Shown here one piece after another: positions 9,808-62,140 of a DNA stretch of 64,000 nt (position 1 is the first letter of the stretch; each line of letters begins with the position of its first letter). The position numbers were made by a program, and so were the translations under genes. A model generated the notes under the pieces. That model searched no databases. It was not told the origin of the DNA and saw nothing but the letters and a program-made list of their open reading frames with translations. This DNA is from Fimbriimonadaceae bacterium (lineage in GTDB: Bacteria; Armatimonadota; UBA10988). Location of the stretch: NCBI GenBank assembly GCA_020850355.1, contig JADZEX010000050.1:124001-188000 (forward strand). Reading direction: 5' to 3'.

Positions 9808-10287
9808 TCAGGCGCCGCTGCAGGGCCAACCGCCCTGCTCGGCGGCCTCCGGAGCCAGCACCGTGGTGTGGCCCTCGTCAATGCCGTGCATCCGCCTGAC
9901 CGCCCGAGTCTTGGCACGAAGTACCTGGACCAGCGGCAAGGGAGGCTGCCGGCCGGCGGGTGCCACCAGCAGGATCGCCGTCGGCGGACCGCACAGGTCG
10001 GCCGGCAGCGCCCGGCCACACTGTTCGCCCCAACTGGTTTCGCAACGAACGCAGGCCAGGGCGTGCAGGGAGTCCCGGAACTTGCTGGCCGTCCGCTCCA
10101 GATCGGGGTCTTTCTGAAGGAACGGCGCGGAGACCACCTCGACCAGCACCGGGCCGGTGGCGCCACCTGGGTGGACCAACCAGTCCACCGGCCGCAAGCC
10201 ATCTCCGGTCAGCCGCTGCACGGCCTCCAGCTTCTCAAAGGCGATCTGCTGCATCGTCCGCGCTGCCCTTCTGTGGTCACCGGACAC
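9808..10287 (-). CDS. Cassette A small protein: unknown partner of ABC-type ATPase
   Basis: The 159-residue protein is a clear paralog of the one at 57782. Shared blocks are VDWL, a strand LVEVVSxPF, KDxxLER, KFxDSLHALACVR, TSWG followed by CG, and a later hydrophobic strand (ILLVAPAG here, LLVVVQLSG there). It has no signal peptide or membrane helix. I do not recognise the family. The Asp of VDWL and the Glu of LVEVV recall the start of a PD-(D/E)xK core, but the expected Lys is missing, so a nuclease is not claimed. Its start overlaps the ATPase 3' end by 11 bases, implying coupled translation. It probably works with that ATPase. The C-terminal third (after about 125) is poorly conserved between copies. 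Confidence 0.75.
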   Translation of the reverse strand: MSGDHRRAARTMQQIAFEKLEAVQRLTGDGLRPVDWLVHPGGATGPVLVEVVSAPFLQKDPDLERTASKFRDSLHALACVRCETSWGEQCGRALPADLCGPPTAILLVAPAGRQPPLPLVQVLRAKTRAVRRMHGIDEGHTTVLAPEAAEQGGWPCSGA

Positions 10288-11326
10288 TGGCCGCCGTGAC
10301 GGTCCCCAGCCCGAGATCCTGCTGATAGAGCTGCCAGGCTTGCTGCACGATCGGATTGTCGGGCATGCCCTGCAACAGGTTGTGGAACTGCGCCGACAAC
10401 ACCCCGTCGACCCGCTCCAGAGAGACCAGACCGGTTGACAGCCGATTCTGGCGACTGGCCAGCTCGAGGGCAGTCAGAAACAGGTAAGAGTGCGTCGCCA
10501 GAATCACCTGCACACCGCCCTTCGCCAACTCGACCAGCGCACCGGTGAGCGCTTGCACCGCCGCTGGGTGCAGGTTGCACTCGGGCTCGTCCAGGAGCAG
10601 CACCCCGCCGGACTGCAGGCTGCGGTTCTGAATCAGCCGCTGCAACACGAAGAGCTTCTTGACGCCTTCCGCCACCACCCCGAGTGAGTAGCGCGAGTTG
10701 CCGCGTCTCAGCACAAACTCGTCCTGGTCGTCTTGGACGAACTCGCCCTCATAGCACGCGTCGAGCTGTTCGCGGGCCCGGTCTAGGCCGGCGGCCAATC
10801 GACCCGGCCGCGGCGCGTAGGCGATCTCCTCGGCCAGGTCGTAGTAGGTGTCATCGAAGGCCACCAGCCCGTGTCGCCCGCGAGCCTCGCGGATCGCCTG
10901 TCGCCAGGTCAGGATCTCCTTGGCCGGCAGAAACGTCACGGCCGCCGGCGCGGCGGGCGGCGGCTCAGCGCAGCTACTGATCCGTCGCGTCGTGTCTCGG
11001 CCGAAGGAGAAGTGGCGGTCCTTTCCAGCCGCGGTGAAGTCGACCTGCAGCGGGCCAGTGCCGGCACGGTGGACCAGATCGCCCAGGCCGCGGGGTGAGA
11101 CCAGGCTGTAGGTGCCCTCCAGCTTGGCGGCCAACAGCTCGGCCCAGGTTCGTCGACCGCGCGCCGCAGCGTGGTCCCGCAGGCTGCGCAGCACAGCATA
11201 GAGGAGCTTCAGCAGGTGTGTCTTGCCGGTGTCGTTGAGACCGATCAGCACGTTCAGGCCAGGCTCTGGCTCCCAGCGGAAGTCCACGAATGGGCCGAGG
11301 TTCTGTATCCGGAGCTGCTCCACCAC
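10277..11326 (-). CDS. Cassette A ABC-type (OLD/SMC-like) ATPase, paralog of 56749
   Basis: The 349-residue ATPase has Walker A GLNDTGKT at 29-36, a signature-like stretch VAEGVKKLF, Walker B VLLLDEPECNLHP and the H-loop ILATHS. This is the AAA_15/AAA_21 type found in OLD nucleases and in many two-gene defence systems, but there is no TOPRIM or other nuclease domain after it. GTG at 11326 is chosen because GGAG lies eight bases upstream and the first residues then align with the paralog (LxxxNxGPF). Both copies are exactly 349 residues. The long frame upstream of 11326 belongs to no gene. Role: inferred energy or sensor subunit for the small protein encoded by the overlapping gene. Confidence 0.85.
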   Translation of the reverse strand: MVEQLRIQNLGPFVDFRWEPEPGLNVLIGLNDTGKTHLLKLLYAVLRSLRDHAAARGRRTWAELLAAKLEGTYSLVSPRGLGDLVHRAGTGPLQVDFTAAGKDRHFSFGRDTTRRISSCAEPPPAAPAAVTFLPAKEILTWRQAIREARGRHGLVAFDDTYYDLAEEIAYAPRPGRLAAGLDRAREQLDACYEGEFVQDDQDEFVLRRGNSRYSLGVVAEGVKKLFVLQRLIQNRSLQSGGVLLLDEPECNLHPAAVQALTGALVELAKGGVQVILATHSYLFLTALELASRQNRLSTGLVSLERVDGVLSAQFHNLLQGMPDNPIVQQAWQLYQQDLGLGTVTAASVR

Positions 11327-11347
11327 GCGTGGATCTCCTGACCCAGC

Positions 11348-11356
11348 ATTGTACCA
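11348..11356 (-). promoter_or_regulatory. Extended -10 promoter of cassette A
   Basis: Read on the minus strand, 11356-11348 is TGGTACAAT: a TG element, one base, then TACAAT (five of six to consensus). Exactly 21 bases separate it from the GTG at 11326, the same spacing as in cassette B (56719-56727 to 56749). No -35 is apparent. Confidence 0.5.
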
Positions 11357-44071: not shown

Positions 44072-46831
44072 ATGACACCGGAACAGGAAGCCCGCCTCGA
44101 GATTGACGCACTGCTCGCAGCGTGCGGCTGGCAGGTGCAGGACTTCCGCTCGCTCCACCTGTCCGCCGCCCCTGGCATCGCTGTGCGGGAGTTCCCCTTG
44201 GCCACCGGCCACGCCGACTACCTGCTGTTTGCCCAAGGCAGGGCCATCGGCTCAGTGGAGGCGAAACCGTTCGGCCACTCGTTGACTGGCACCGAGGGGC
44301 AGGCGCGGAAGTACACCGAGGGCCTCGACGCGCAGGTGGCTGCCTACGGGCGGCCGCTGCCCTTCCACTTCGAAAGCACCGGCGTCGAAACGCGCTTCAC
44401 CAACCTGCTCGACCCCGAGCCGCGCAGTCGGGGGCTGTTTGCCTTCCACACCCCCGCTGAACTGATCAGGCTCGCTGGCCTCGACCGCCAGCTTCGCGAT
44501 GCCCTGCAACACCTGCCGCCGCTCAACACCACGGGGCTCTGGCCTGTCCAGGTGCAAGCCGTGCAACGCCTGGAGCAGTCGCTGGCCGATAGCCGGCCGC
44601 GTTCGCTGATCCAGATGGCCACCGGCTCGGGCAAGACCTTCACCGCCGCCACCTTCTGCTACCGGCTGGTCAAGCACGCCGGGGCCAGGCGCATCCTGTT
44701 CCTGGTTGACCGCAACAACTTGGGCCGGCAGGCCCTGCGCGAGATCGGCAACTACCAGGCCCCCGACGCCGCGCGGCCGTTCGCCGAAGAGTTCAACATC
44801 CAGCACCTGCGCTCGCAGACCATCGCCGAACCCAGCCGCCTCTGCATCTCGACGGTGCAGCGGCTGTTTTCGATGCTGCGCGGCACCGAGTTGGACGAAG
44901 CGATCGAAGAGGAGTCCCTGTTCGAGGCGGCGCAGCCCGCCACCAAAGAGATCGAGCCGATCGCGTACAACCCCAGCTACCCGATCTCGACGTTCGACTT
45001 CATCGTCATCGACGAGTGCCACCGCAGCATCTACAACCAGTGGCGGCAGGTGCTCGACTACTTCGATGCCTCCCTGATCGGCTTGACCGCCACGCCCACC
45101 GCGCAAACCATCGGCTTCTTCGACCAGAACCTGGTGATGGAATACGGCCACCAGGCGGCTGTGGCCGATGGCATCAACGTCGACTACCAGGTCTACCGCA
45201 TCCGGACGAAGATCACCGAGCAGGGCGCCACCATCGAAGGCCAGCCCGGCTTCTACATCCCGGTCCGCGACCGGCGCACGCGGCAGGTGCGCCACCAGCA
45301 GTTGGACGACGATCTGGTCTACACAGCGGGGCAACTCGACCGCGATGTGCAGAACCCCAACCAGATCCGCACGGTCATCCGCGCCTTCCGGGAGCGGCTG
45401 TTCACCGACATCTTCCCTGGTCGCACCGAGGTGCCGAAGACGTTGGTCTTCGCCAAGGATGACAACCACGCCGAGGAGATCACCAAGATCATCCGCGAGG
45501 AGTTCGGGCGCGGCAACGAGTTCTGCCAGAAGATCACCTACAAGACCACCGGGGCCAGGCCCGAAGACCTGCTCCAAGCCTTTCGCGTGTCCTATCTGCC
45601 GCGCATCGTGGTGACCGTGGACATGATCTCCACCGGCACCGACGTGAAGCCGTTGGAGTGCCTGCTGTTCCTGCGGATGATCCACAGCGCCGGCTACTTC
45701 GAGCAGATGAAGGGCCGGGGCGTGCGCGTGGTCTCGCCCGATGACCTCGCCACGGTGACACCCCATGTGCGGGCCAAGACCCACTTCGTGATCGTCGATG
45801 CCGTCGGCGTGTGTGAGCACGACAAGTCCGAGTCCCAGCCACTCGACCGCAAGCCCACGGTGTCGCTCAAAGATCTGCTCAGCGCCGCCGCGCAGGGCAG
45901 CGGCAGCGAGGATCTGGCATCGTCGCTGGCCTCGCGGCTGCTGCGGCTCGAACAGGAGATGACCCCGGAGCAGCTCGCCGCCGTCCGCGCGACCGCGAAC
46001 GGCAACGAGCTTGCCCAGCTTGCCGCTGGTCTGCTCGACAGCATCGATCCCGACCGCCAGGCCGCCGCCGCGGAGGCCGCCGCCGCCAGGCTGGGCCGCG
46101 AGTTGACCGAGCGCGAGGCCAACGAGGTGCGGGCCGAACTCGTGCGCGAGGCGCTCACGCCGTTCCACAACCCCGACCTGCGCCAAACCATCCTGGCCAT
46201 CCGCCAACAACTCGAGCAGATCATCGACGAGAGCAACCCTGACGAAGTGCTCGAAGCCGGATTCAGCGCGGCAGCGCTCGACCGGGCGCGGTCGCTCATC
46301 GGGAGCTTCCGGCAGTTCTGCGAGGAGCACAAGGACCGCATTGAGGCCCTGCGAATCCTCTACTCGCGGCCGTACCGCGCTGGCCTGCGCTATCGCCATG
46401 TCCGCGAGTTGGCCGCCTTGCTGAAGGCCAACGCTCCGGCCGCCGAGCCTGCCGCGCTGTGGGCGGCGTACCAGCAGGTTGAGCCCGAGCGAGTGCGCGG
46501 CGTGGGCGGCAAGCAGTTGGCCGACCTGGTGGCGTTGGTCAAACACGCCGTGACGCCTGACGAGCCGCTGGTGCCCGTGGCCGAGACGGTCGAGGAGCGC
46601 TATCGAGCCTGGCTCGGCGAGCAGACCGCCGCCGGAGTCGAGTTCACCGCCGAGCAGCGGGCCTGGCTCGACGCCATCAAAGACCACATCGCCGCCAGCC
46701 TGCATATCGACGAGGAGGACTTCTACGAGGTGCCGTTCAGCCAACTCGGCGGGCTGGGCAAGGTGTACAGCCTGTTTGGTGAGCGGCTGCGGGGCATTCT
46801 GGATGAGTTGAATGGGAGGTTGGCGGCGTGA
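44072..46831 (+). CDS. hsdR: Type I restriction enzyme R subunit
   Basis: The 919-residue motor/nuclease subunit has an N-terminal PD-(D/E)xK nuclease (D in GHADYLLFA, then SVEAKP), Walker A QMATGSGKT near residue 190, DECH box VIDECHRS, motif III LTATPT, and motif VI QMKGRGVRVV. A C-terminal helical region binds the methylase complex. Length is typical of the shorter type I R subunits. HsdR translocates DNA and cuts when the recognition site is unmethylated. The hsdS start overlaps its 3' end (GTGA, 46828-46831). It is the first gene of the locus, 124 bp after the fucosidase gene. Confidence 0.95.
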   Translation: MTPEQEARLEIDALLAACGWQVQDFRSLHLSAAPGIAVREFPLATGHADYLLFAQGRAIGSVEAKPFGHSLTGTEGQARKYTEGLDAQVAAYGRPLPFHFESTGVETRFTNLLDPEPRSRGLFAFHTPAELIRLAGLDRQLRDALQHLPPLNTTGLWPVQVQAVQRLEQSLADSRPRSLIQMATGSGKTFTAATFCYRLVKHAGARRILFLVDRNNLGRQALREIGNYQAPDAARPFAEEFNIQHLRSQTIAEPSRLCISTVQRLFSMLRGTELDEAIEEESLFEAAQPATKEIEPIAYNPSYPISTFDFIVIDECHRSIYNQWRQVLDYFDASLIGLTATPTAQTIGFFDQNLVMEYGHQAAVADGINVDYQVYRIRTKITEQGATIEGQPGFYIPVRDRRTRQVRHQQLDDDLVYTAGQLDRDVQNPNQIRTVIRAFRERLFTDIFPGRTEVPKTLVFAKDDNHAEEITKIIREEFGRGNEFCQKITYKTTGARPEDLLQAFRVSYLPRIVVTVDMISTGTDVKPLECLLFLRMIHSAGYFEQMKGRGVRVVSPDDLATVTPHVRAKTHFVIVDAVGVCEHDKSESQPLDRKPTVSLKDLLSAAAQGSGSEDLASSLASRLLRLEQEMTPEQLAAVRATANGNELAQLAAGLLDSIDPDRQAAAAEAAAARLGRELTEREANEVRAELVREALTPFHNPDLRQTILAIRQQLEQIIDESNPDEVLEAGFSAAALDRARSLIGSFRQFCEEHKDRIEALRILYSRPYRAGLRYRHVRELAALLKANAPAAEPAALWAAYQQVEPERVRGVGGKQLADLVALVKHAVTPDEPLVPVAETVEERYRAWLGEQTAAGVEFTAEQRAWLDAIKDHIAASLHIDEEDFYEVPFSQLGGLGKVYSLFGERLRGILDELNGRLAA

Positions 46832-48432
46832 GTGACCTGCCCGGAACCGAACTGCTAGCACTGCCTGCTACGTGGACTTGGGTGGTCCTCGGGTCGATCG
46901 CCGAAGTGAAGCTCGGGAAGATGCTCTCAGAAGCCGCGTATGCCATTGGATTGGCGCAACTCCCGTACCTGCGTAACCAGAACGTCCGATGGTTCGGCAT
47001 CGACGATGGCGACCTGAAGATGATGGGCTTCGCTGACCACGAGCGCGAACGGTTCGCGGTTCGCACCGGTGATCTTCTGGTCTGCGAAGGCGGTGAACCG
47101 GGTCGATGCGCAGTGGTGCCTGAGCACCTTGACGGGCTGATGTACCAGAAGGCGCTCCACCGGGTCAGACCGTGCGACGGCGTGCTCGAAAGCAGGTTCT
47201 TGCAGTATATGCTTCGGCACTTTGTTGACAGTGGCATTGCCGTGCCGCGAATGTCAGAGACCACCATACAGCACTTGCCACTGGAGAAAGTCCTTCGCTT
47301 GCCGGTGGTGGTAGCGCCGGCCAACGAGCAACGCCGCATCGCCGACAAACTCGACGAGTTGTTCTCGCAGCTCGACGCCGGGGTGGCGGCGCTGGAGCGG
47401 GTGCAGGCCAACCTGAAGCGCTATCGCGCGGCGGTGTTGAAGGCGGCGGTGGCGGGCGACCTGACCCGCGAGTGGCGGGCGCAGCATCCCGAGGTGGAAC
47501 CGGCGTCGGTGCTGCTGGAGCGCATCCTGGCCGAGCGGCGGCGGCAGTGGGAAGCCGCGCAGTTGGCCAAGTTCGAGGCCCAGGGCAAGCGCCCGCCCGC
47601 GAACTGGCGAGCCAAGTACGAAGAGGCCGCGCCGCCGGACACCACCGGCCTGCCGGAGTTGCCGCAGGGGTGGTGTTGGGCGAGTGTTGCCCAGATCGGC
47701 GCGGTGCAAGGCGGGATTCAGAAGCAGCCGAAGAGAGCACCCAAATCCAACGCATACCCATACCTTCGCGTGGCGAATGTGCTGCGGGACAGGCTCGACC
47801 TGAGCGTGATGGAGGCAATGGAGTTATTCGGTGGGGAGCTGGAACGGCTACGGCTTGAGGCTGGCGACCTGCTCATCGTCGAGGGCAACGGCAGCCGGGA
47901 CCAGATCGGGCGAAGTGCTGTCTGGACGGGCAAGATAGGCAACTGCGTTCACCAGAACCACATCATCCGTGTGCGCCCGCGCTGCGGCTCGCCTGCTTTC
48001 CTCAACCTCTACTGGAACTCGCCACTGGGCGCGGGCCGGGTGTTTGACGTGGCCGCCTCGACGAGCGGCTTGTATACGCTCAGCGTCAGCAAGGTCATGT
48101 CGTTGCCGGTTGCCGTGCCGCCAGAGGCGGAGCAGGCGATAGTAGTGGCCGAGGCGGAACGCCTGCTTGCGGCTGCCGAGCACGTCGAGAGGCTGCTATC
48201 GGCGAACGGTGCCCGCGCTGCCCGCCTCCGCCAGAGCATCCTGAAGCAAGCGTTCGAGGGCAAGTTGGTGCCGCAGGATCCGTCCGACGAGCCCGCCGAG
48301 AAGTTGTTGGAGCGTATCGCAGCCGCACGCGGGCAGGCGCCGCCGAAGGCGCGCCGGCCGCGGGAGCGGCGGCCGGGCGAGCAGTCTGCGACCCGTGACC
48401 GACGGACCTGGGCTGACGTAGAATACCGGTAG
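46828..48432 (+). CDS. hsdS: Type I restriction-modification specificity subunit
   Basis: The 534-residue protein has two target-recognition domains (about 1-160 and 275-430), each followed by a long helical spacer. The first spacer carries the conserved EQRRIADKLDELFSQLDAG and LKRYRAAVLKAAVAGDLT; the second carries LRQSILKQAFEGKLVPQDP. Each recognition domain should read one half of a split DNA target. It starts with GTG in the hsdR stop region. The C-terminus ends in a basic tail (PPKARRPRERRPGEQ). A possible promoter for the next two genes lies within its last codons. Confidence 0.93.
   Translation: MSDLPGTELLALPATWTWVVLGSIAEVKLGKMLSEAAYAIGLAQLPYLRNQNVRWFGIDDGDLKMMGFADHERERFAVRTGDLLVCEGGEPGRCAVVPEHLDGLMYQKALHRVRPCDGVLESRFLQYMLRHFVDSGIAVPRMSETTIQHLPLEKVLRLPVVVAPANEQRRIADKLDELFSQLDAGVAALERVQANLKRYRAAVLKAAVAGDLTREWRAQHPEVEPASVLLERILAERRRQWEAAQLAKFEAQGKRPPANWRAKYEEAAPPDTTGLPELPQGWCWASVAQIGAVQGGIQKQPKRAPKSNAYPYLRVANVLRDRLDLSVMEAMELFGGELERLRLEAGDLLIVEGNGSRDQIGRSAVWTGKIGNCVHQNHIIRVRPRCGSPAFLNLYWNSPLGAGRVFDVAASTSGLYTLSVSKVMSLPVAVPPEAEQAIVVAEAERLLAAAEHVERLLSANGARAARLRQSILKQAFEGKLVPQDPSDEPAEKLLERIAAARGQAPPKARRPRERRPGEQSATRDRRTWADVEYR
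48395..48424 (+). promoter_or_regulatory. Possible internal promoter for the PIN module
   Basis: GTGACC (48395-48400), an 18-base spacer and TAGAAT (48419-48424, five of six to TATAAT) lie at the very end of hsdS, 57 bases before the GTG at 48482. It would let the antitoxin-like and PIN genes be expressed apart from hsdR and hsdS. Confidence 0.4.
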
Positions 48433-48481
48433 CGGCGACCGCACCATGTTCCGGACTGTCGAAGCCGAAAGGAGGTGCCTC

Positions 48482-49438
48482 GTGAAGCAGACGATGATAC
48501 TCGCCAACGCCAGCGGACCCGGCAAGCCGTCGCCGCTGCCAGTCGGGCGCTTGCTGACCGAAGTACCGAGTGTGGTTCGGCAGAGCGTGTCGATGGCCTT
48601 CCGTGGCCGCAGTGCGTTCAGTGGCAAGCCCCCGAAGTGGTTGGTGAACGCATCGGATGTACGCCTCCACGCGGTGACCACGAACTGCACACGCACGGAG
48701 CTGGTCTTCGACGCCCCGCCACTTGGCGAGGCAGCGGCGGAGTACTACCAGCAGGCGGCGTTCGAAGGTGAGCACTGGCCGGAGCGCCCGTCGCCCAACG
48801 ACACGGGGTTCGACCTGTTCGGCGACGTTGTGGCGGCGTTGTCGCGCGGTGATGAGGACAGCGACCGCTTTGATACCGGCTTGCTCACCGAGGTGTCGAG
48901 ACTGACCAAGGCCATCCACGGCACCTTCGACGGACTGGTGATCAGCAGTCGGCGCTACCCAGCCAATGGCCCTGACGTGCTCACGAGCAAACTGTGGGAC
49001 ACGGCTCGCACGATGCTGGCCAAGACGCCTCCCGCGAGGCGTACACGGTTGGTTGGCGAACTCGACGCGGTCCGGTTCAGCACTGGCGCGTTCGCGCTCA
49101 GGCTGGACGATGGCCACGAGGTGAAGGGGGTGGTGGAGCCCGAGCAACTCCAGCTGCTTCGCAGATTGGTGGCCAGTGGGGAGCGCGTGCTGGTCCGTGG
49201 CGACGCGGTGTTCAAGCCCTCTGGTCAGCTTCTGCTGATCAACGCTGAAGAAGTGTGCGGTGGAGCGGGTGAGGCCGCTCTCTGGTCGAGGCTGCCGTCG
49301 TTCGCGCAGGGCAGCGTCAAGTCCCAGCGGTTGCACCGGCGACAGACTCAGAAGACCGGGTTGGCGGCGATCATCGGGCAATGGCCAGGCGATGAGACAG
49401 ACGACGAGATCGCCGCCGCGTTGAGAGAGTTGTCGTGA
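48482..49438 (+). CDS. Antitoxin-like protein of unknown family, paired with PIN toxin
   Basis: The 318-residue protein starts at GTG 48482 with a very strong AAAGGAGG seven bases upstream. The body is unrecognised: an N-terminal basic stretch (PSVVRQSVSMAFRGRSAF), an acidic middle, and a C-terminal beta-rich part (ALRLDDGHEVKGVVEPEQL, SGERVLVRGDAVFKPSGQLLLI). It ends IIGQWPGDETDDEIAAALRELS-like; the GxWPGDExDxE tail is common at the C-termini of proteins encoded just before PIN toxins and is the likely toxin-binding peptide. It overlaps the PIN gene start by four bases (GTGA). It is much longer than normal VapB antitoxins. Confidence 0.72.
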   Translation: MKQTMILANASGPGKPSPLPVGRLLTEVPSVVRQSVSMAFRGRSAFSGKPPKWLVNASDVRLHAVTTNCTRTELVFDAPPLGEAAAEYYQQAAFEGEHWPERPSPNDTGFDLFGDVVAALSRGDEDSDRFDTGLLTEVSRLTKAIHGTFDGLVISSRRYPANGPDVLTSKLWDTARTMLAKTPPARRTRLVGELDAVRFSTGAFALRLDDGHEVKGVVEPEQLQLLRRLVASGERVLVRGDAVFKPSGQLLLINAEEVCGGAGEAALWSRLPSFAQGSVKSQRLHRRQTQKTGLAAIIGQWPGDETDDEIAAALRELS

Positions 49439-49875
49439 GCGTCGCCGCCCACGGCCTCCTGGTGCTCGATACGAGCGTGCTGGTGCACTTGGTCCGGCAT
49501 GATGGCACCGGCCAGGCGATCGACAGCGATCTTGGCCTTTCGGCCCGCCACGAACGCCCCTTTTACTGCGTCGTCACCGAAGGGGAGATCCGCGCTCTGG
49601 CCACGGGATGGGCTTGGGGCGCGGCGAAGCTGAGCAAGCTGGATGATCTCCTTCTCGAACTGGTGCCGGTGGACATCGGGTCGCGTGACGTGATCGACTC
49701 CTACTCGGCGCTGTATTCGGCCGCGACCAAGCTGGGCAGGCCCCGTGGCGAGAATGACCTCTGGATCGCCGCCGCCGCAATGGCGACTGGCGCGGATCTG
49801 GTGACCTGCGACACGGACTTCGACTGGATGCACCCCGACTGGTTGGTCGTGCACTACTTCGCCGAGGTGCGCTGA
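49435..49875 (+). CDS. PIN-domain toxin inside the restriction-modification locus
   Basis: The 146-residue PIN nuclease has the acidic residues D12 (LVLDTSVLVHL), E49/E51 (VVTEGEI), D108 (GENDLWIAAAA) and D126/D128 (CDTDFD), so the active site is complete. GTG 49435 overlaps the stop of the antitoxin-like gene. It sits between hsdS and hsdM. It probably cleaves RNA; when and why it is released is unknown. The location suggests a back-up suicide module triggered when the restriction system is attacked or lost, by analogy with anticodon nucleases encoded inside some type I loci. That is inference. Confidence 0.87.
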   Translation: MSVAAHGLLVLDTSVLVHLVRHDGTGQAIDSDLGLSARHERPFYCVVTEGEIRALATGWAWGAAKLSKLDDLLLELVPVDIGSRDVIDSYSALYSAATKLGRPRGENDLWIAAAAMATGADLVTCDTDFDWMHPDWLVVHYFAEVR

Positions 49876-49930
49876 CGCGTCCCCGCCAGCAATCGCGGAG
49901 ATCCGTACTTTGCCGTTTCCGCATGTCGCA

Positions 49931-49957
49931 GGCCGGCGCGGCCCTACCGCGCCGGCC
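49931..49957 (+). promoter_or_regulatory. Strong GC hairpin between the PIN gene and hsdM
   Basis: GGCCGGCGCGG (49931-49941) and CCGCGCCGGCC (49947-49957) form a perfect 11-bp stem with a 5-base loop, 32 bases before the hsdM start and 55 bases after the PIN stop. No T tract follows, so it could be a processing or attenuation element as easily as a terminator. Confidence 0.45.
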
Positions 49958-49989
49958 GCGGAGCGGCCGATGAAGGAAGAGAAGTAGAC

Positions 49990-51480
49990 GTGAGCACTGA
50001 AAGCCAGCAGATCGTCAACCGCGCCTGGAGCTTCGCCCATGTCCTGCGCGACGATGGGCTCAGCTACATGGCCTACACCGAGCAGATCACCTTCCTGCTG
50101 TTCCTGAAGATGGCGCACGAGTTGACCGAGCCGCCTTACAACAAGCCGCCCATCGTGCCGGTCGAGTATGGCTGGCAGAGCCTGCTCGACCGCGACGGCG
50201 ACGCCCTGCTCGACCACTACCGGCACATCCTGGAAGCCCTCGGCAGGCACGGTGGCATGCTGGCCGAGGTGTTCCGCCGGGCGCGGGCCGAGATCCAGAA
50301 CCCGGCGACGCTCCGGCGGCTGATCGTGGAGTTGATCGGCGCGGTGCACTGGTCATCGCTGAACGCCGACGTGAAGGGCGACATCTACGAAGGCTTGTTG
50401 GCCAAGAGCGCCGAGGAAAGCCCGAAGGGCGCCGGGCAGTACTTCACGCCGCGCGCGGTGATCCAGGCCATCGTGAAGGTGATGCGGCCAACGCCCGAGG
50501 AGACGGTCATCGACCCCGCCTGCGGCACCGGTGGCTTCCTGCTGGCTGCGCACGACCACGTGGTCAGCCACTTCGGCCGCGAGCTTGACCCCGAGCAGAA
50601 GCGCCATCTGCGCCACGGCTTCGTGCACGGCGTGGATCTGGTGCCCAACACAGCCCGCCTGTGCATCATGAACCTGTATCTGCACGGCGTGGATGGCGAG
50701 CCCTGCCCCGTCCAGTCGGGCGTGGACTCGCTGGCCGCGCACCCCGGCCGCCACTTCTCGATGGTGCTGACCAATCCGCCGTTCGGCAAGAAGTCGAGCA
50801 TCACCGTGGTGAACGAGGTGGGCGATGAGGAGCGTGAGGATCAGCCGTATGAGCGGGCCGACTTCTGGACGACCACCAAGAACAAGCAGTTGAACTTCGT
50901 GCAGCACTGCCGGTCGATCCTGACCGCGCGCGGCCGGTGCGCGATGGTGGTGCCCGACAACGTGCTCTTCGAGGGCGGCGCGGGCGAGACCGTGCGGCGC
51001 CGGCTGCTGACCCAGTGCGACGTCCACACTCTGCTGCGCCTGCCCACCGGCATCTGGTATTCGCCGGGCGTGAAGGCCAACGTGCTCTTCTTCGACAACC
51101 GCCCCGCGCGCGAGCAGGCCTGGACGGAACGGCTGTGGGTCTATGACCTGCGCACGAACATGCACTTCACCCTGAAGCAGAACCCTATCGGCCCGGACGA
51201 CCTGGCCGAGTTCGTGGACTGCTACCACCCCGCCAACCGCCACGACCGCCGCGAGACCTGGCGCGAAGACCACCCGGCGGGCCGCTGGCGCAGCTACGAC
51301 TACGGCGACCTGCTGAAGCGGGACAAGCTCAACTTGGACATCTTCTGGCTGAAGGATGACAGCCTGGCCGAATCGGAGAACCTGCCCGCGCCGGAAGTCC
51401 TGGCGCAGGAGATCACCGACGACCTTGAGGCCGCCTTGGAGCAGTTCAGCCAGATCCTCCAGGGCCTCCACCAAGGGTAG
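49990..51480 (+). CDS. hsdM: Type I restriction-modification DNA adenine methyltransferase subunit
   Basis: The 496-residue protein has the N-terminal helical HsdM_N domain (about 1-120), SAM-binding motif I DPACGTGGFL near residue 180, and catalytic motif IV TNPPFG near residue 260. GAGQYFTPRAVI precedes motif I as in all type I M subunits. It methylates adenine at the target read by HsdS, protecting host DNA. It starts at GTG 49990 with a GGAAGAG stretch upstream. It is the last gene of the locus, separated from hsdR and hsdS by the PIN module, an uncommon order. Confidence 0.95.
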   Translation: MSTESQQIVNRAWSFAHVLRDDGLSYMAYTEQITFLLFLKMAHELTEPPYNKPPIVPVEYGWQSLLDRDGDALLDHYRHILEALGRHGGMLAEVFRRARAEIQNPATLRRLIVELIGAVHWSSLNADVKGDIYEGLLAKSAEESPKGAGQYFTPRAVIQAIVKVMRPTPEETVIDPACGTGGFLLAAHDHVVSHFGRELDPEQKRHLRHGFVHGVDLVPNTARLCIMNLYLHGVDGEPCPVQSGVDSLAAHPGRHFSMVLTNPPFGKKSSITVVNEVGDEEREDQPYERADFWTTTKNKQLNFVQHCRSILTARGRCAMVVPDNVLFEGGAGETVRRRLLTQCDVHTLLRLPTGIWYSPGVKANVLFFDNRPAREQAWTERLWVYDLRTNMHFTLKQNPIGPDDLAEFVDCYHPANRHDRRETWREDHPAGRWRSYDYGDLLKRDKLNLDIFWLKDDSLAESENLPAPEVLAQEITDDLEAALEQFSQILQGLHQG

Positions 51481-56748: not shown

Positions 56749-57798
56749 ATGTTGGACCGGCTGCTGGTTCGCAACTTCGGGCCGTTCACAACCTGTGACT
56801 GGCGGCCGTGTCGCGGGCTGAACGTCGTGATCGGTCTCAACGACACGGGCAAGAGCTTCCTGCTGAAGCTCGCCTTCGCGACACTGCGGAGCCTTTACGA
56901 CCACGCCCTGGCCAAGCCCGCGCGGCCCTGGTCCGAGTTGCTGGCCGGCCGGCTCGAGAGCACCTTCAGCCTGCAACTGCGCGGCGGCCTCGGCGATCTG
57001 GTGCTGCGCGGCAGCGCCGAGCCGCTGCACGTCGATCTGACCGTCGCCGGGACCAATACCTACTTCTCGTTTGGACGGGACACCACCAAACGGGTTCTGC
57101 ACGCCTCGGATCCGGTCGCCAGCGAGCCACCGGCGGTGACCTTCATCCCCGCCAAGGAGGCGGTCACCTGGCGGCACGCCATCCGTGAGGGCCGCCGGCG
57201 GCACGGCCTCGTTGAGTTTGACGACACCTACCTCGAAGTCGGCGAAGACTTGCTCGACAAGCCCGGCCGCGGGCCGCTCGCCGGGCCGATGCACGCCGCG
57301 CTCAAGCACCTCGGTGACCAGTACGATGGCGAGGTGGTCCAAGCCGACGACGACTTCGTGCTGCGCCGCAACGGCACCCGCCTGGCGATGGGCCACGTGG
57401 CCGAGGGCATCAAGAAGCTCTTCATGCTGCAGCAGTTGATTGCCAACCGCCACATCGCGAAGGGCTCAGTGCTGCTGCTCGACGAGCCAGAGGCCAACTT
57501 GCACCCGCAGGCCGTGGTGGCACTCAGCCGCGCCCTGCTGGAGCTTGAGGCCGGCGGCGTGCAGGTCCTGCTGGCGACGCACTCGTACTTCCTGCTGAAG
57601 GCCCTGGAGATCGCCGCTCGCGCCGCACAACGTGACGTGAGCGTGGTCTCGCTCGAACGCGCCGCGCCAGGCATCAGCCTGCGGCTCGACAACCTCCGGG
57701 ACGGGATGCCCCCGAATCCGATCGTCACGCAGGCGCTGGAGCTCTACGAGGCCGACATGCACCTCCGCCTCGGAGCCAGCGATGTCGCGTCGAGCTGA
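56749..57798 (+). CDS. Cassette B ABC-type (OLD/SMC-like) ATPase, paralog of 10277-11326
   Basis: The 349-residue ATPase matches cassette A along its whole length. It has NxGPF near residue 9, Walker A GLNDTGKS at 29-36, the shared HFSFGRDTT/YFSFGRDTT strand, PAKExxTWRxAIREGRxRHGLV in the middle, AEGIKKLFMLQQLI in the signature position, Walker B D245-E246 (LLLDEPEANLHP) and H278 of the H-loop (LATHSY). There is no nuclease or TOPRIM domain. Such ATPases usually dimerise head to tail around ATP and may encircle or sense DNA. Its last 17 bases overlap the small-protein gene. The two are likely one functional unit. Confidence 0.87.
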   Translation: MLDRLLVRNFGPFTTCDWRPCRGLNVVIGLNDTGKSFLLKLAFATLRSLYDHALAKPARPWSELLAGRLESTFSLQLRGGLGDLVLRGSAEPLHVDLTVAGTNTYFSFGRDTTKRVLHASDPVASEPPAVTFIPAKEAVTWRHAIREGRRRHGLVEFDDTYLEVGEDLLDKPGRGPLAGPMHAALKHLGDQYDGEVVQADDDFVLRRNGTRLAMGHVAEGIKKLFMLQQLIANRHIAKGSVLLLDEPEANLHPQAVVALSRALLELEAGGVQVLLATHSYFLLKALEIAARAAQRDVSVVSLERAAPGISLRLDNLRDGMPPNPIVTQALELYEADMHLRLGASDVASS

Positions 57799-58252
57799 GC
57801 GGCGCGACCTGCAGGTTCGGTGGGACCAACTCGCCGCGGTCTGCCAGTTGAGCGGTCGCGGCATGGCGGCCGTCGACTGGTTGCACTGGTCGGCCAGCGA
57901 GCAGCGGTTCGCTCTGGTCGAGGTGGTCTCTCAGCCGTTTGCCGCCAAGGACGGCGCGCTGGAACGCCTCGTCCGCAAGTTCAGCGACTCGCTGCACGCC
58001 CTGGCCTGTGTCCGGGCCGGCACCTCGTGGGGAGCGGTGTGTGGCGGCGACCTGCCCACGGTGTTCGGCTCCACCGGGCCGGGGCTCTTGGTGGTGGTGC
58101 AGCTCAGCGGCCCGCCGCCGCTCGACCAGGCCGAGGTCCTGTCGCAGGCCCTGCGCTTCGTGTTGCCGCTGCATGGCTTGCGGCCCACCGCCGTGGCGGT
58201 GCTCACCCGGCAGCTTGCGGAGCGTGCCGGGCTGCCGATCGACGCGCCCTGA
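57782..58252 (+). CDS. Cassette B small protein: unknown partner of ABC-type ATPase
   Basis: The 156-residue protein is the paralog of the one at 9808. It shares VDWL, LVEVVSQPF, KDGALER, KFSDSLHALACVR, TSWG and CG in the same order and spacing. The most conserved part is a helix centred on DSLHALACVR, with an invariant Cys and His. It is soluble, with no signal peptide. I do not recognise the fold. It begins inside the ATPase gene (17-base overlap), so it is translated with it. A strong hairpin follows the stop, closing the cassette. It could be the effector of a defence or toxin-like pair, or a specificity factor for the ATPase. Confidence 0.76.
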   Translation: MSRRAERRDLQVRWDQLAAVCQLSGRGMAAVDWLHWSASEQRFALVEVVSQPFAAKDGALERLVRKFSDSLHALACVRAGTSWGAVCGGDLPTVFGSTGPGLLVVVQLSGPPPLDQAEVLSQALRFVLPLHGLRPTAVAVLTRQLAERAGLPIDAP

Positions 58253-58295
58253 GTGCCTCCCGGCCGGCGGCCCGCAGGCCGCCGGCCGGGAGCAC
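58253..58295. terminator. Very strong bidirectional terminator hairpin
   Basis: CTCCCGGCCGGCGGCC (58257-58272) pairs perfectly with GGCCGCCGGCCGGGAG (58277-58292) around loop CGCA. GTG (58253-58255) and CAC (58293-58295) extend it past a bulged C. It fills the 47-bp gap between convergent cassette B and the GH4 gene. No T tract is present. Confidence 0.65.
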
Positions 58296-60739: not shown

Positions 60740-62140
60740 TCACAGTGTCGCCTGATGCGGCGCAATCTCGTCCAAGAGTTGTCGCAGATGCGCCGATGCC
60801 GGCAGTTGTCCGTGGTTGTACATTCGCCACAAGATCAGCTCTCGGCCCACGCCATACTGATCGGTCAACGCGGTCACCTGCGTCTCCAACTCGGCTTCGA
60901 GCGACGCCAGGGCGGCGACCGATCCGGGCAGCAACAGCTCTGCGGCGAAAGCGTTGGCTCGCTGTTCGTGCCCGTACCGTCGTGCCAGGCCGTTTACCTG
61001 CCCAACCGGCAACTCCGTGTCGCGGTCAAGGAGCAGATGGCAGATCTCGTGCGCGATGGTGGCGCGCCGGCCGGGCATGGTCTGTGAGAAGCGCCCCGTC
61101 GGGTTGATGATCACGCCGGGTCCGTGCTGGTGGCCCCAGAAGCTGACTGCCTCAACCCGGCTGGAGGGCAGCTCCAGTTCCACCACCAGCACCTTCCAGC
61201 GCCCGAGCAGATCGGCGGGCTCCAGTCGCTCCCGCTTGCGGCACAGCCGCAGACGCAGCCAGCGAGCGGCATGATATCCCTGCTGCGCGGGATGCTTGTC
61301 CAAGACCTCTACAACGACTTCTGACGCTTCCCTGGAGAGCGTGTCGAGCTCCGGTGTGAGCATGGCAGGAGCCTGTCGGATCTGATCCGTGACCATCCGA
61401 ACGACACTCACGGGGACCACCTGGCGCAGGCTGCGGGCCGCCATCTGGAGGGAGGTCGCTTGCGGGCTGTGGGGATCGTAGCCCAGGAACTCCGCCAGAT
61501 CGGCGCCGGCTGCCAGCTCGGCCAGATCGTCGGCCGGCAGACCCTGAAACCGGAGGAACTGCGCCGCCGAACGAGTCGCGCGGTCCTGCCAGCGACGCAA
61601 CGCCCGCACGCCACGGCGTTCCTCGCAGCCGTTCAGCCGGGCCGCGAGTTCGTCGCCCACCTGGCGGAGGACGTCCAGAACCTGCCCGGCCGGCAGCACG
61701 ACCCGCGCGTTGGTCTCGGCGCACCCGATCACCATCGTTTGTCCCAGTCGCAGCAGGACCACGTCGGCCAGGCCCAGACCGTTCGGGGCGCCCGCCAGAT
61801 TGTGCTGCGCCCACCAGTCGAGTTGGTCCTGGCTCGGCTCATCCCCCTCGACGCGCCGGATTGCGTCCACCAAACTCGCCGGCTGGTGGGGCAGCAATGG
61901 GCTGTCCGCGGGATACCCCTCGTCGTGCAGTAGCGCCGGCCAACTGTCGCCCAGCCACTCGAGCAGATCCAGCCAGGTCCACTCGAGCGGCTTGGGCCTG
62001 GCGTTGGGCTCCAGGCTGTTCCACGGGTGCGCCGAGTCCAGCCACAGCACCAGGCCGCCGTTGGTCCGCTGCTCATCGCTACCCGCCGGTGGCTGGTCAG
62101 CCCACCGCAACTCGAATCCGAACCTGGTGGTGCCGGTCAT
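60740..62140 (-). CDS. ImmA/IrrE-family metallopeptidase with a long unrecognised N-terminal region
   Basis: The 466-residue protein carries the ImmA/IrrE (COG2856) zinc peptidase core at about 330-445: VSFWGHQHGPGVIINPTGR, HEICH (H364, E365, H368) in RRATIAHEICHLLLD, and EQRANAFAAELLLP supplying the third ligand. Family members cleave repressors or DdrO-like regulators in response to DNA damage, or act as toxins or inducers in mobile and defence modules. The first 320 residues are helical and unrecognised, with no HTH I can identify; a typical member is shorter or fused to an Xre HTH. ATG 62140 overlaps the stop of the preceding small gene as ATGA. Confidence 0.85.
   Translation of the reverse strand: MTGTTRFGFELRWADQPPAGSDEQRTNGGLVLWLDSAHPWNSLEPNARPKPLEWTWLDLLEWLGDSWPALLHDEGYPADSPLLPHQPASLVDAIRRVEGDEPSQDQLDWWAQHNLAGAPNGLGLADVVLLRLGQTMVIGCAETNARVVLPAGQVLDVLRQVGDELAARLNGCEERRGVRALRRWQDRATRSAAQFLRFQGLPADDLAELAAGADLAEFLGYDPHSPQATSLQMAARSLRQVVPVSVVRMVTDQIRQAPAMLTPELDTLSREASEVVVEVLDKHPAQQGYHAARWLRLRLCRKRERLEPADLLGRWKVLVVELELPSSRVEAVSFWGHQHGPGVIINPTGRFSQTMPGRRATIAHEICHLLLDRDTELPVGQVNGLARRYGHEQRANAFAAELLLPGSVAALASLEAELETQVTALTDQYGVGRELILWRMYNHGQLPASAHLRQLLDEIAPHQATL

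Follow-up and report, generated by a model that had tools for sequence, protein, structure and literature searches.

The window, by which we mean the whole 64,000-nucleotide stretch of Fimbriimonadaceae DNA analysed here, carries two gene pairs, copies A and B, each of which is best explained as a divergent two-gene anti-phage module of the HEC-02 / OLD-ABC ATPase plus PD-(D/E)XK class (probability of this reading as a whole, roughly 65%). The class itself is known, and what is new is a valine/arginine variant of the active site in the small partner protein. Taken part by part, the family-level identity of the pairs is held with high confidence and a role in defence is likely, while the odds that the window partner is still catalytic are even. 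The partner would probably act as an abortive-infection effector licensed by the ATPase, its active site rewired, or else be a pseudo-nuclease; we lean slightly towards catalysis having been rewired rather than lost.

Two ATPase-partner pairs of the HEC-02 type

Inspection of the gene coordinates (Table 1) bears out the first-pass annotation in that the window holds two overlapping ATPase/small-protein pairs in the same order, with ATPases of 349 residues each; only its upper limit of 11356 for copy A overshoots the start codon, by 30 nt. In both copies the genes share a strand, with the ATPase first and the partner second, where the overlap measures 11 nt in copy A and 17 nt in copy B. A perfect 16-nt inverted repeat with a 4-nt loop (window 58257-58292), with no T run after it, lies between the convergent copy B partner and GH4 genes.

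Table 1. Coordinates of the gene pairs, partner active-site residues and nearby restriction genes in the window.
Feature	Position	Strand	Remark
Copy A pair	9808-11326	-	ATPase and small partner, overlapping genes
Copy A ATPase (HEC-02A, OLD/AbiEii-type ABC ATPase)	10277-11326	-	349 aa, GTG start
Ribosome-binding-like CAGGAG (AGGAG-like)	11335-11340	-	8 nt upstream of copy A GTG start; read from sequence
Copy A partner (diverged PD-(D/E)XK-type HEC-02B homologue)	9808-10287	-	159 aa
Copy A D35, motif II acid	10183-10185	-	column D/E in 76/77 partners
Copy A E50, motif III acid, kept	10138-10140	-	column E 76/77, D 1/77
Copy A V52, motif III lysine position	10132-10134	-	K 71, R 4, V 2 of 77
Copy A R65, helix after third core strand, in place of usual E/N/D	10093-10095	-	R in window copies alone
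Copy A K69, motif IV lysine, kept	10081-10083	-	column K in 76/77
Copy B pair	56749-58252	+	ATPase and small partner, overlapping genes
Copy B ATPase (HEC-02A)	56749-57798	+	349 aa
Copy B partner (diverged PD-(D/E)XK-type HEC-02B homologue)	57782-58252	+	156 aa
Copy B D32, motif II acid	57875-57877	+	partner alignment
Copy B E47, motif III acid	57920-57922	+	partner alignment
Copy B V49, motif III lysine position	57926-57928	+	partner alignment
Copy B R62, same helix as K66	57965-57967	+	partner alignment
Copy B K66, motif IV lysine	57977-57979	+	partner alignment
Type I restriction-modification system	44072-51480	+	HsdM ends 5.3 kb before copy B
HsdR	44072-46831	+	type I R-M
HsdS	46828-48432	+	type I R-M
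ORF between HsdS and HsdM	48446-49438	+	
HsdM	49990-51480	+	type I R-M

Each window ATPase matches the PADLOC model HEC-02A, at 6.5e-89 over residues 2-340 for copy A and at 3.6e-81 over the full length for copy B, with the AriA, PtuA, GajA and OLD models far behind for both. Pfam places AAA_21/AAA_15 above the cut-off for the window ATPases (AAA_21 at 2.1e-20 for copy A). The copy A protein contains a P-loop (GLNDTGKT), a signature-like segment (VAEGVKKL), a Walker B motif (LLLDEPE) and an H-loop (ATHSY), and the OLD-family ABC ATPase motifs common to both copies read GLNDTGK[TS], VAEG[IV]KKL, LLLDEPE and ATHSY. Judged by these motifs, the first gene of each copy encodes an intact OLD-type ABC ATPase. 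The labels of PDLC04145 and PDLC04146 in PADLOC-DB look swapped; a 170-position model named HEC-02A matches a small partner (locus L015, 2e-54), and a 344-position model named HEC-02B matches ATPases.

For the partners, a single-sequence search against PADLOC HEC-02B gave 1e-5 over residues 41-108 of copy B; the copy A partner has no direct PADLOC or NCBIfam match and no Pfam match near the cut-off. Comparison by hhalign of both window partners, aligned, with 31 canonical HEC-02B partners returned a probability of 96.2 (E 2.2e-9, 139 columns), and the window partners are therefore regarded as homologous to canonical HEC-02B. On this profile comparison they are remote HEC-02B members, beyond the reach of single-sequence models. 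Neither has a TOPRIM or HNH match in Pfam or PADLOC, and a sequence-profile search against solved structures, solved nucleases included, returned no match for the partner.

The AlphaFold2 model of the copy B partner (pLDDT 90.8, pTM 0.87) is predicted to have the usual PD-(D/E)XK order of core elements, and a canonical partner was modelled at pLDDT 94.1. The better PDB matches returned by Foldseek included FokI, EcoO109I, MunI and BamHI for the copy B model (best E 0.015, TM about 0.4) and BsmI, Hachiman and MUS81 for the canonical model (best E 0.02); for both models the matches are weak and mixed with unrelated folds. A viral structure library likewise returned weak matches only, some PD-(D/E)XK proteins among them. 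Canonical partners have E-S-G in the N-terminal region, followed in order by [DE]-F, E-x-K and a helix whose K is invariant. Together, the weak fold matches and the motifs point to the PD-(D/E)XK superfamily for the partner. For the window partners, membership rests on homology to the canonical partners, because their motif III is not intact.

Taking one genome per species, a scan gave at least 377 relatives, of which the best 80 were kept. These best 80 of at least 377 are 30-39% identical to copy B and come from Pseudomonadota, Bacteroidota, Cyanobacteriota, Bacillota, Verrucomicrobiota, archaea and others. An intact-looking partner ORF lies directly downstream of the ATPase in 67 of these 80 loci, with an overlap in canonical relatives of mostly 4 nt. 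Six-frame profile searches recovered a partial or broken partner in a further 10, of which L035 is weak and several are broken or cut by a contig end, and recovered none in L025, L029 (where the contig ends) and L097. With a partner, intact or partial, in nearly all of the best 80 of at least 377 loci, the survey sustains the proposal of the first-pass annotation that the two genes form a discrete ATPase plus small-effector unit of the anti-phage kind. In three relatives (L039, L085 and L014) the partner is split or cut short, likely by a frameshift, with the ATPase open. In Halochromatium roseum the first pair is closely followed, on its downstream side, by another HEC-02-type pair, which is very divergent (L067, 8051-9660).

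An altered active site in the window partners

The partners were aligned across 77 sequences among the matches listed, both window copies included. Valine stands at the motif III lysine position only in the two window copies, the remaining sequences having K (71) or R (4). At the position of copy B residue 62, 49 partners have E and the others mostly N or D, with R confined to the window copies. The window partners also lack the conserved N-terminal ESG segment, which in canonical partners carries an invariant Glu (E8 of A10), and no upstream start that would restore it occurs in the frame of either copy. A search of 291 genomes of the phylum found no further valine-variant genome, where one extra match (E 6.6e-4) covers the C-terminal half only. 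Three partners (L042, L067 and L123) have E-x-R in place of E-x-K; they cluster in the ATPase tree, and one sits inside a BREX type 2 operon.

Since the signature lysine has become valine, the window partners would either cut in an altered way or not at all. V49 and R62 probably go back to a single ancestral change, and their coupling therefore carries no statistical weight. Other PD-(D/E)XK families offer precedents (PMC1913061), the lysine of motif III having apparently migrated there to the helix of motif IV, frequently as an arginine. We propose, at a little under even odds, a lineage that lost the catalytic lysine and either shifted its charge to a newly gained arginine on the motif IV helix (V49 with R62) or turned the nuclease into a sensor, and that was kept through duplication in one genome beside a canonical copy. 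By analogy with WonAB and PARIS, the ATPase would dimerise on ATP, hold and stabilise the partner, sense an infection cue and license the partner to cut a nucleic acid; cutting would abort infection, apparently by blocking translation as in WonAB. The metal-binding D32 and E47 are kept, and positive charge may come from K66 and perhaps also from the newly acquired R62 of the motif IV helix. Against this reading as a whole count the absence here of the lysine essential in WonB and of the N-terminal invariant Glu, the weak fold matches, the want of a sequence-profile match to a solved nuclease, and the position of both window copies outside any operon with another defence gene.

The losses of the motif III lysine and of the ESG segment, present in both copies, would also follow if the partner were a pseudo-nuclease, a non-cutting fold that either senses nucleotides or nucleic acids or regulates the ATPase, with any effect exerted through the ATPase or another effector such as the canonical pair encoded elsewhere in this genome. 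We consider this possible, if tentative. Loss of function in the K71A mutant of WonB (PMC12137116) is consistent with it, as are the presence of a canonical E-V-K pair in the same genome and the proposal that inactive REases beside NTPases act as sensors in other immune systems (PMC12839542). In contrast, both copies retain the motif II D/E, motif III E and motif IV K although the partners are only 43% identical, and conservation is highest in the nuclease core. Copies A and B are 57% identical in residues 28-92 versus 31% elsewhere, which argues that this region is under constraint.

Should the valine simply be tolerated, the partner would in practice be a canonical HEC-02-type nuclease with nothing else unusual, in which K56 takes the catalytic place. 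K56-D57 is kept in both copies and adjoins the active-site strand, but K56 falls in a loop that is variable or gapped across the family, and motif III is otherwise K or R in 75 of the 77 partners. We regard this as unlikely.

The rewired or sensor lineage proposed above bears on a class that is wide and mostly untested. A natural variant that lacks the residue whose mutation inactivates WonB, and that occurs as a diverged twin set alongside a canonical pair of its own genome, allows a direct test both of whether partner catalysis is always needed and of the extent to which the active site of a PD-(D/E)XK protein tolerates rebuilding. The lysine-loss lineage, if true, would show how an effector class changes its chemistry or role.

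Age and genomic setting of the copies

The ATPases of copies A and B are 55% identical over 340 aa (E 9e-129) and the partners 43% over 150 aa (E 4e-34), and with such E-values the resemblance is homology, not chance. NG86 estimates, near saturation and with dN below dS, put dN at 0.40 and dS at 0.91 for the ATPases, and dN at 0.64 and dS at 1.06 for the partners. Given this identity and a dS of about 1, the copies diverged long ago and have both been maintained; the duplication is not a recent one. Recent amplification was considered and is ruled out by the 55%/43% identity, which, with the NG86 dS of about 1, overturns the first-pass description of the system as amplified. In a quick tree, computed with no bootstrap and with the letter make-up of the window-copy rows flagged as unusual, the window copies group together (99% SH-aLRT), and their shared long branch falls outside nearly all close relatives.

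Within the 6.67-Mb assembly, A and B are the sole close copies, and one more distant pair lies on contig C79. This third pair (L003, 1486-3026) is canonical, with matches to HEC-02A at 1.5e-122 and HEC-02B at 4.3e-54 and an intact E-V-K motif. It is usable as an internal control for the window copies.

That both copies are duplicates on their way to becoming pseudogenes is very improbable. One catalytic residue and the N-terminal segment have been lost, and broken partners occur in several relatives (L039, L085, L014). Against decay, all four genes are open with their overlaps kept, dN is below dS (0.40 versus 0.91 and 0.64 versus 1.06, near saturation), and the same V and R changes are common to both copies.

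Some relatives elsewhere sit beside other defence genes. On a conjugative Polaromonas plasmid (L123), the closest plasmid relative by identity among the matches listed (38.5%), the pair is flanked by pglX and pglZ within a type 2 BREX operon. A Halomonas pair (L090) lies between PglX and PglZ-BrxL, and the pair of L064 immediately precedes PglZ-BrxL. L058, L070, L073 and L085 adjoin type IIG, I, I and IV restriction genes, respectively, and a scan of 222 neighbour ORFs of relatives revealed further restriction and BREX genes. HEC-02-type pairs are thus associated with restriction and BREX genes, a statement of association and not of enrichment.

The window copies lie amid metabolic and signalling genes (a histidine kinase, a GH141-like gene, an MR/MLE enolase and GH4), with no other defence gene in operon with either copy. 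A type I restriction-modification system lies upstream of copy B (Table 1). The ORF at window 60740-62140 on the minus strand encodes an ImmA/IrrE-like peptidase domain (Peptidase_M78, 8e-9) and is weakly similar to the defence-linked capP and RmrA. Among 52 window ORFs scanned, one matches the Pfam family of type VI secretion Hcp proteins (8e-16).

A relative occurs sporadically in the window's phylum, in 12 of 291 genomes, and within the class of the window's genome the sole carrier among five genomes is the window's own, the other four being without one. Viral contigs yielded no close relatives of the partner, and ATPase relatives in phage records reach 24-28% identity only. This distribution bears on whether the pair is instead an OLD-type ATPase and small partner co-opted for a cellular process, as the ordinary metabolic and signalling neighbours might suggest and as the cell-cycle rather than antiviral role of OLD-family ATPases in an archaeon, described in PMC12796447, would allow. 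Such a role is distinctly unlikely here: the pair is not present in the four other genomes of the class, it is sporadic in the phylum, and relatives occur on plasmids and inside BREX operons.

A mobile element at either copy was considered and set aside, with no transposase or integrase among the window genes checked and no long flanking repeat. An empty-site comparison with three genomes of the same family showed the GH4 neighbour alone to be shared (70% at the protein level), with the rest not syntenic, so that an insertion boundary is not drawable. The mobility suggested by the first-pass annotation therefore stands at the family level, where occurrence on conjugative plasmids and inside BREX operons, a patchy distribution and the lack of a relative in the four other genomes of the class speak for it, and is unsupported at the window copies themselves, where no transposase or integrase appeared among the genes checked and no long flanking repeat was seen.

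Comparison with known systems

The closest named system is HEC-02 (PADLOC; Hma-embedded candidate 02), with which the window copies share gene order, a HEC-02A ATPase (337-349 aa) matched end to end, and a small overlapping downstream partner homologous to HEC-02B. The window partners differ from it in lacking the motif III lysine and the N-terminal ESG segment, and the window copies are not embedded in another defence operon. No paper treating HEC-02 itself was found in the literature searched. The small protein had first been taken for an undescribed effector that fits no family; it appears instead to be a remote member of PADLOC HEC-02B, and the architecture of an OLD-ABC ATPase paired with a PD-(D/E)XK nuclease has already been described (PMC12137116, PMC12839542). 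A reference "novel REase" operon comes from Anaerovibrio lipolyticus, and our scan returned an HEC-02-type pair from this species (L075).

Likeness to Septu and PARIS, also put forward in the first-pass annotation, holds for the type of ATPase and fails for the partner, which by Pfam is neither HNH nor TOPRIM. In PARIS (AriA/AriB), an OLD-type ATPase similarly controls a small nuclease effector, with a related scheme of sequestration and release (PMC11455837), whereas AriB is a TOPRIM nuclease and the window partners have no TOPRIM match in Pfam or PADLOC. The window ATPase resembles PtuA of Septu and of retron-linked PtuAB in its ATP-binding core. It is shorter, however, and PtuB is an HNH nuclease, a family with no match among the window partners.

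WonAB of Vibrio cholerae is a tested OLD-ABC ATPase and PD-(D/E)xK pair that aborts phage infection (PMC12137116), apparently by stopping translation (PMC12137116). Both proteins are required, as are ATPase residues and K71 of WonB, where K71A abolishes function, and WonB is toxic only with an active WonA ATPase (PMC12137116). The layout is the same, an OLD-ABC ATPase followed by a small PD-(D/E)xK protein, and the relation is drawn through the published description, not through sequence. WonA appears longer than the window ATPases, judged by residue numbers. Assuming that K71 is the motif III lysine, it has no counterpart in the window motif III, which has valine; the window ATPases retain the lysine of Walker A, the glutamate of Walker B and the histidine of the H-loop. 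The same pairing recurs in the OLD-ABC plus PD-(D/E)XK backup effectors inside BREX (PMC12839542), and relatives of the window pairs lie inside BREX type 1 and type 2 operons. The window copies, in contrast, stand alone.
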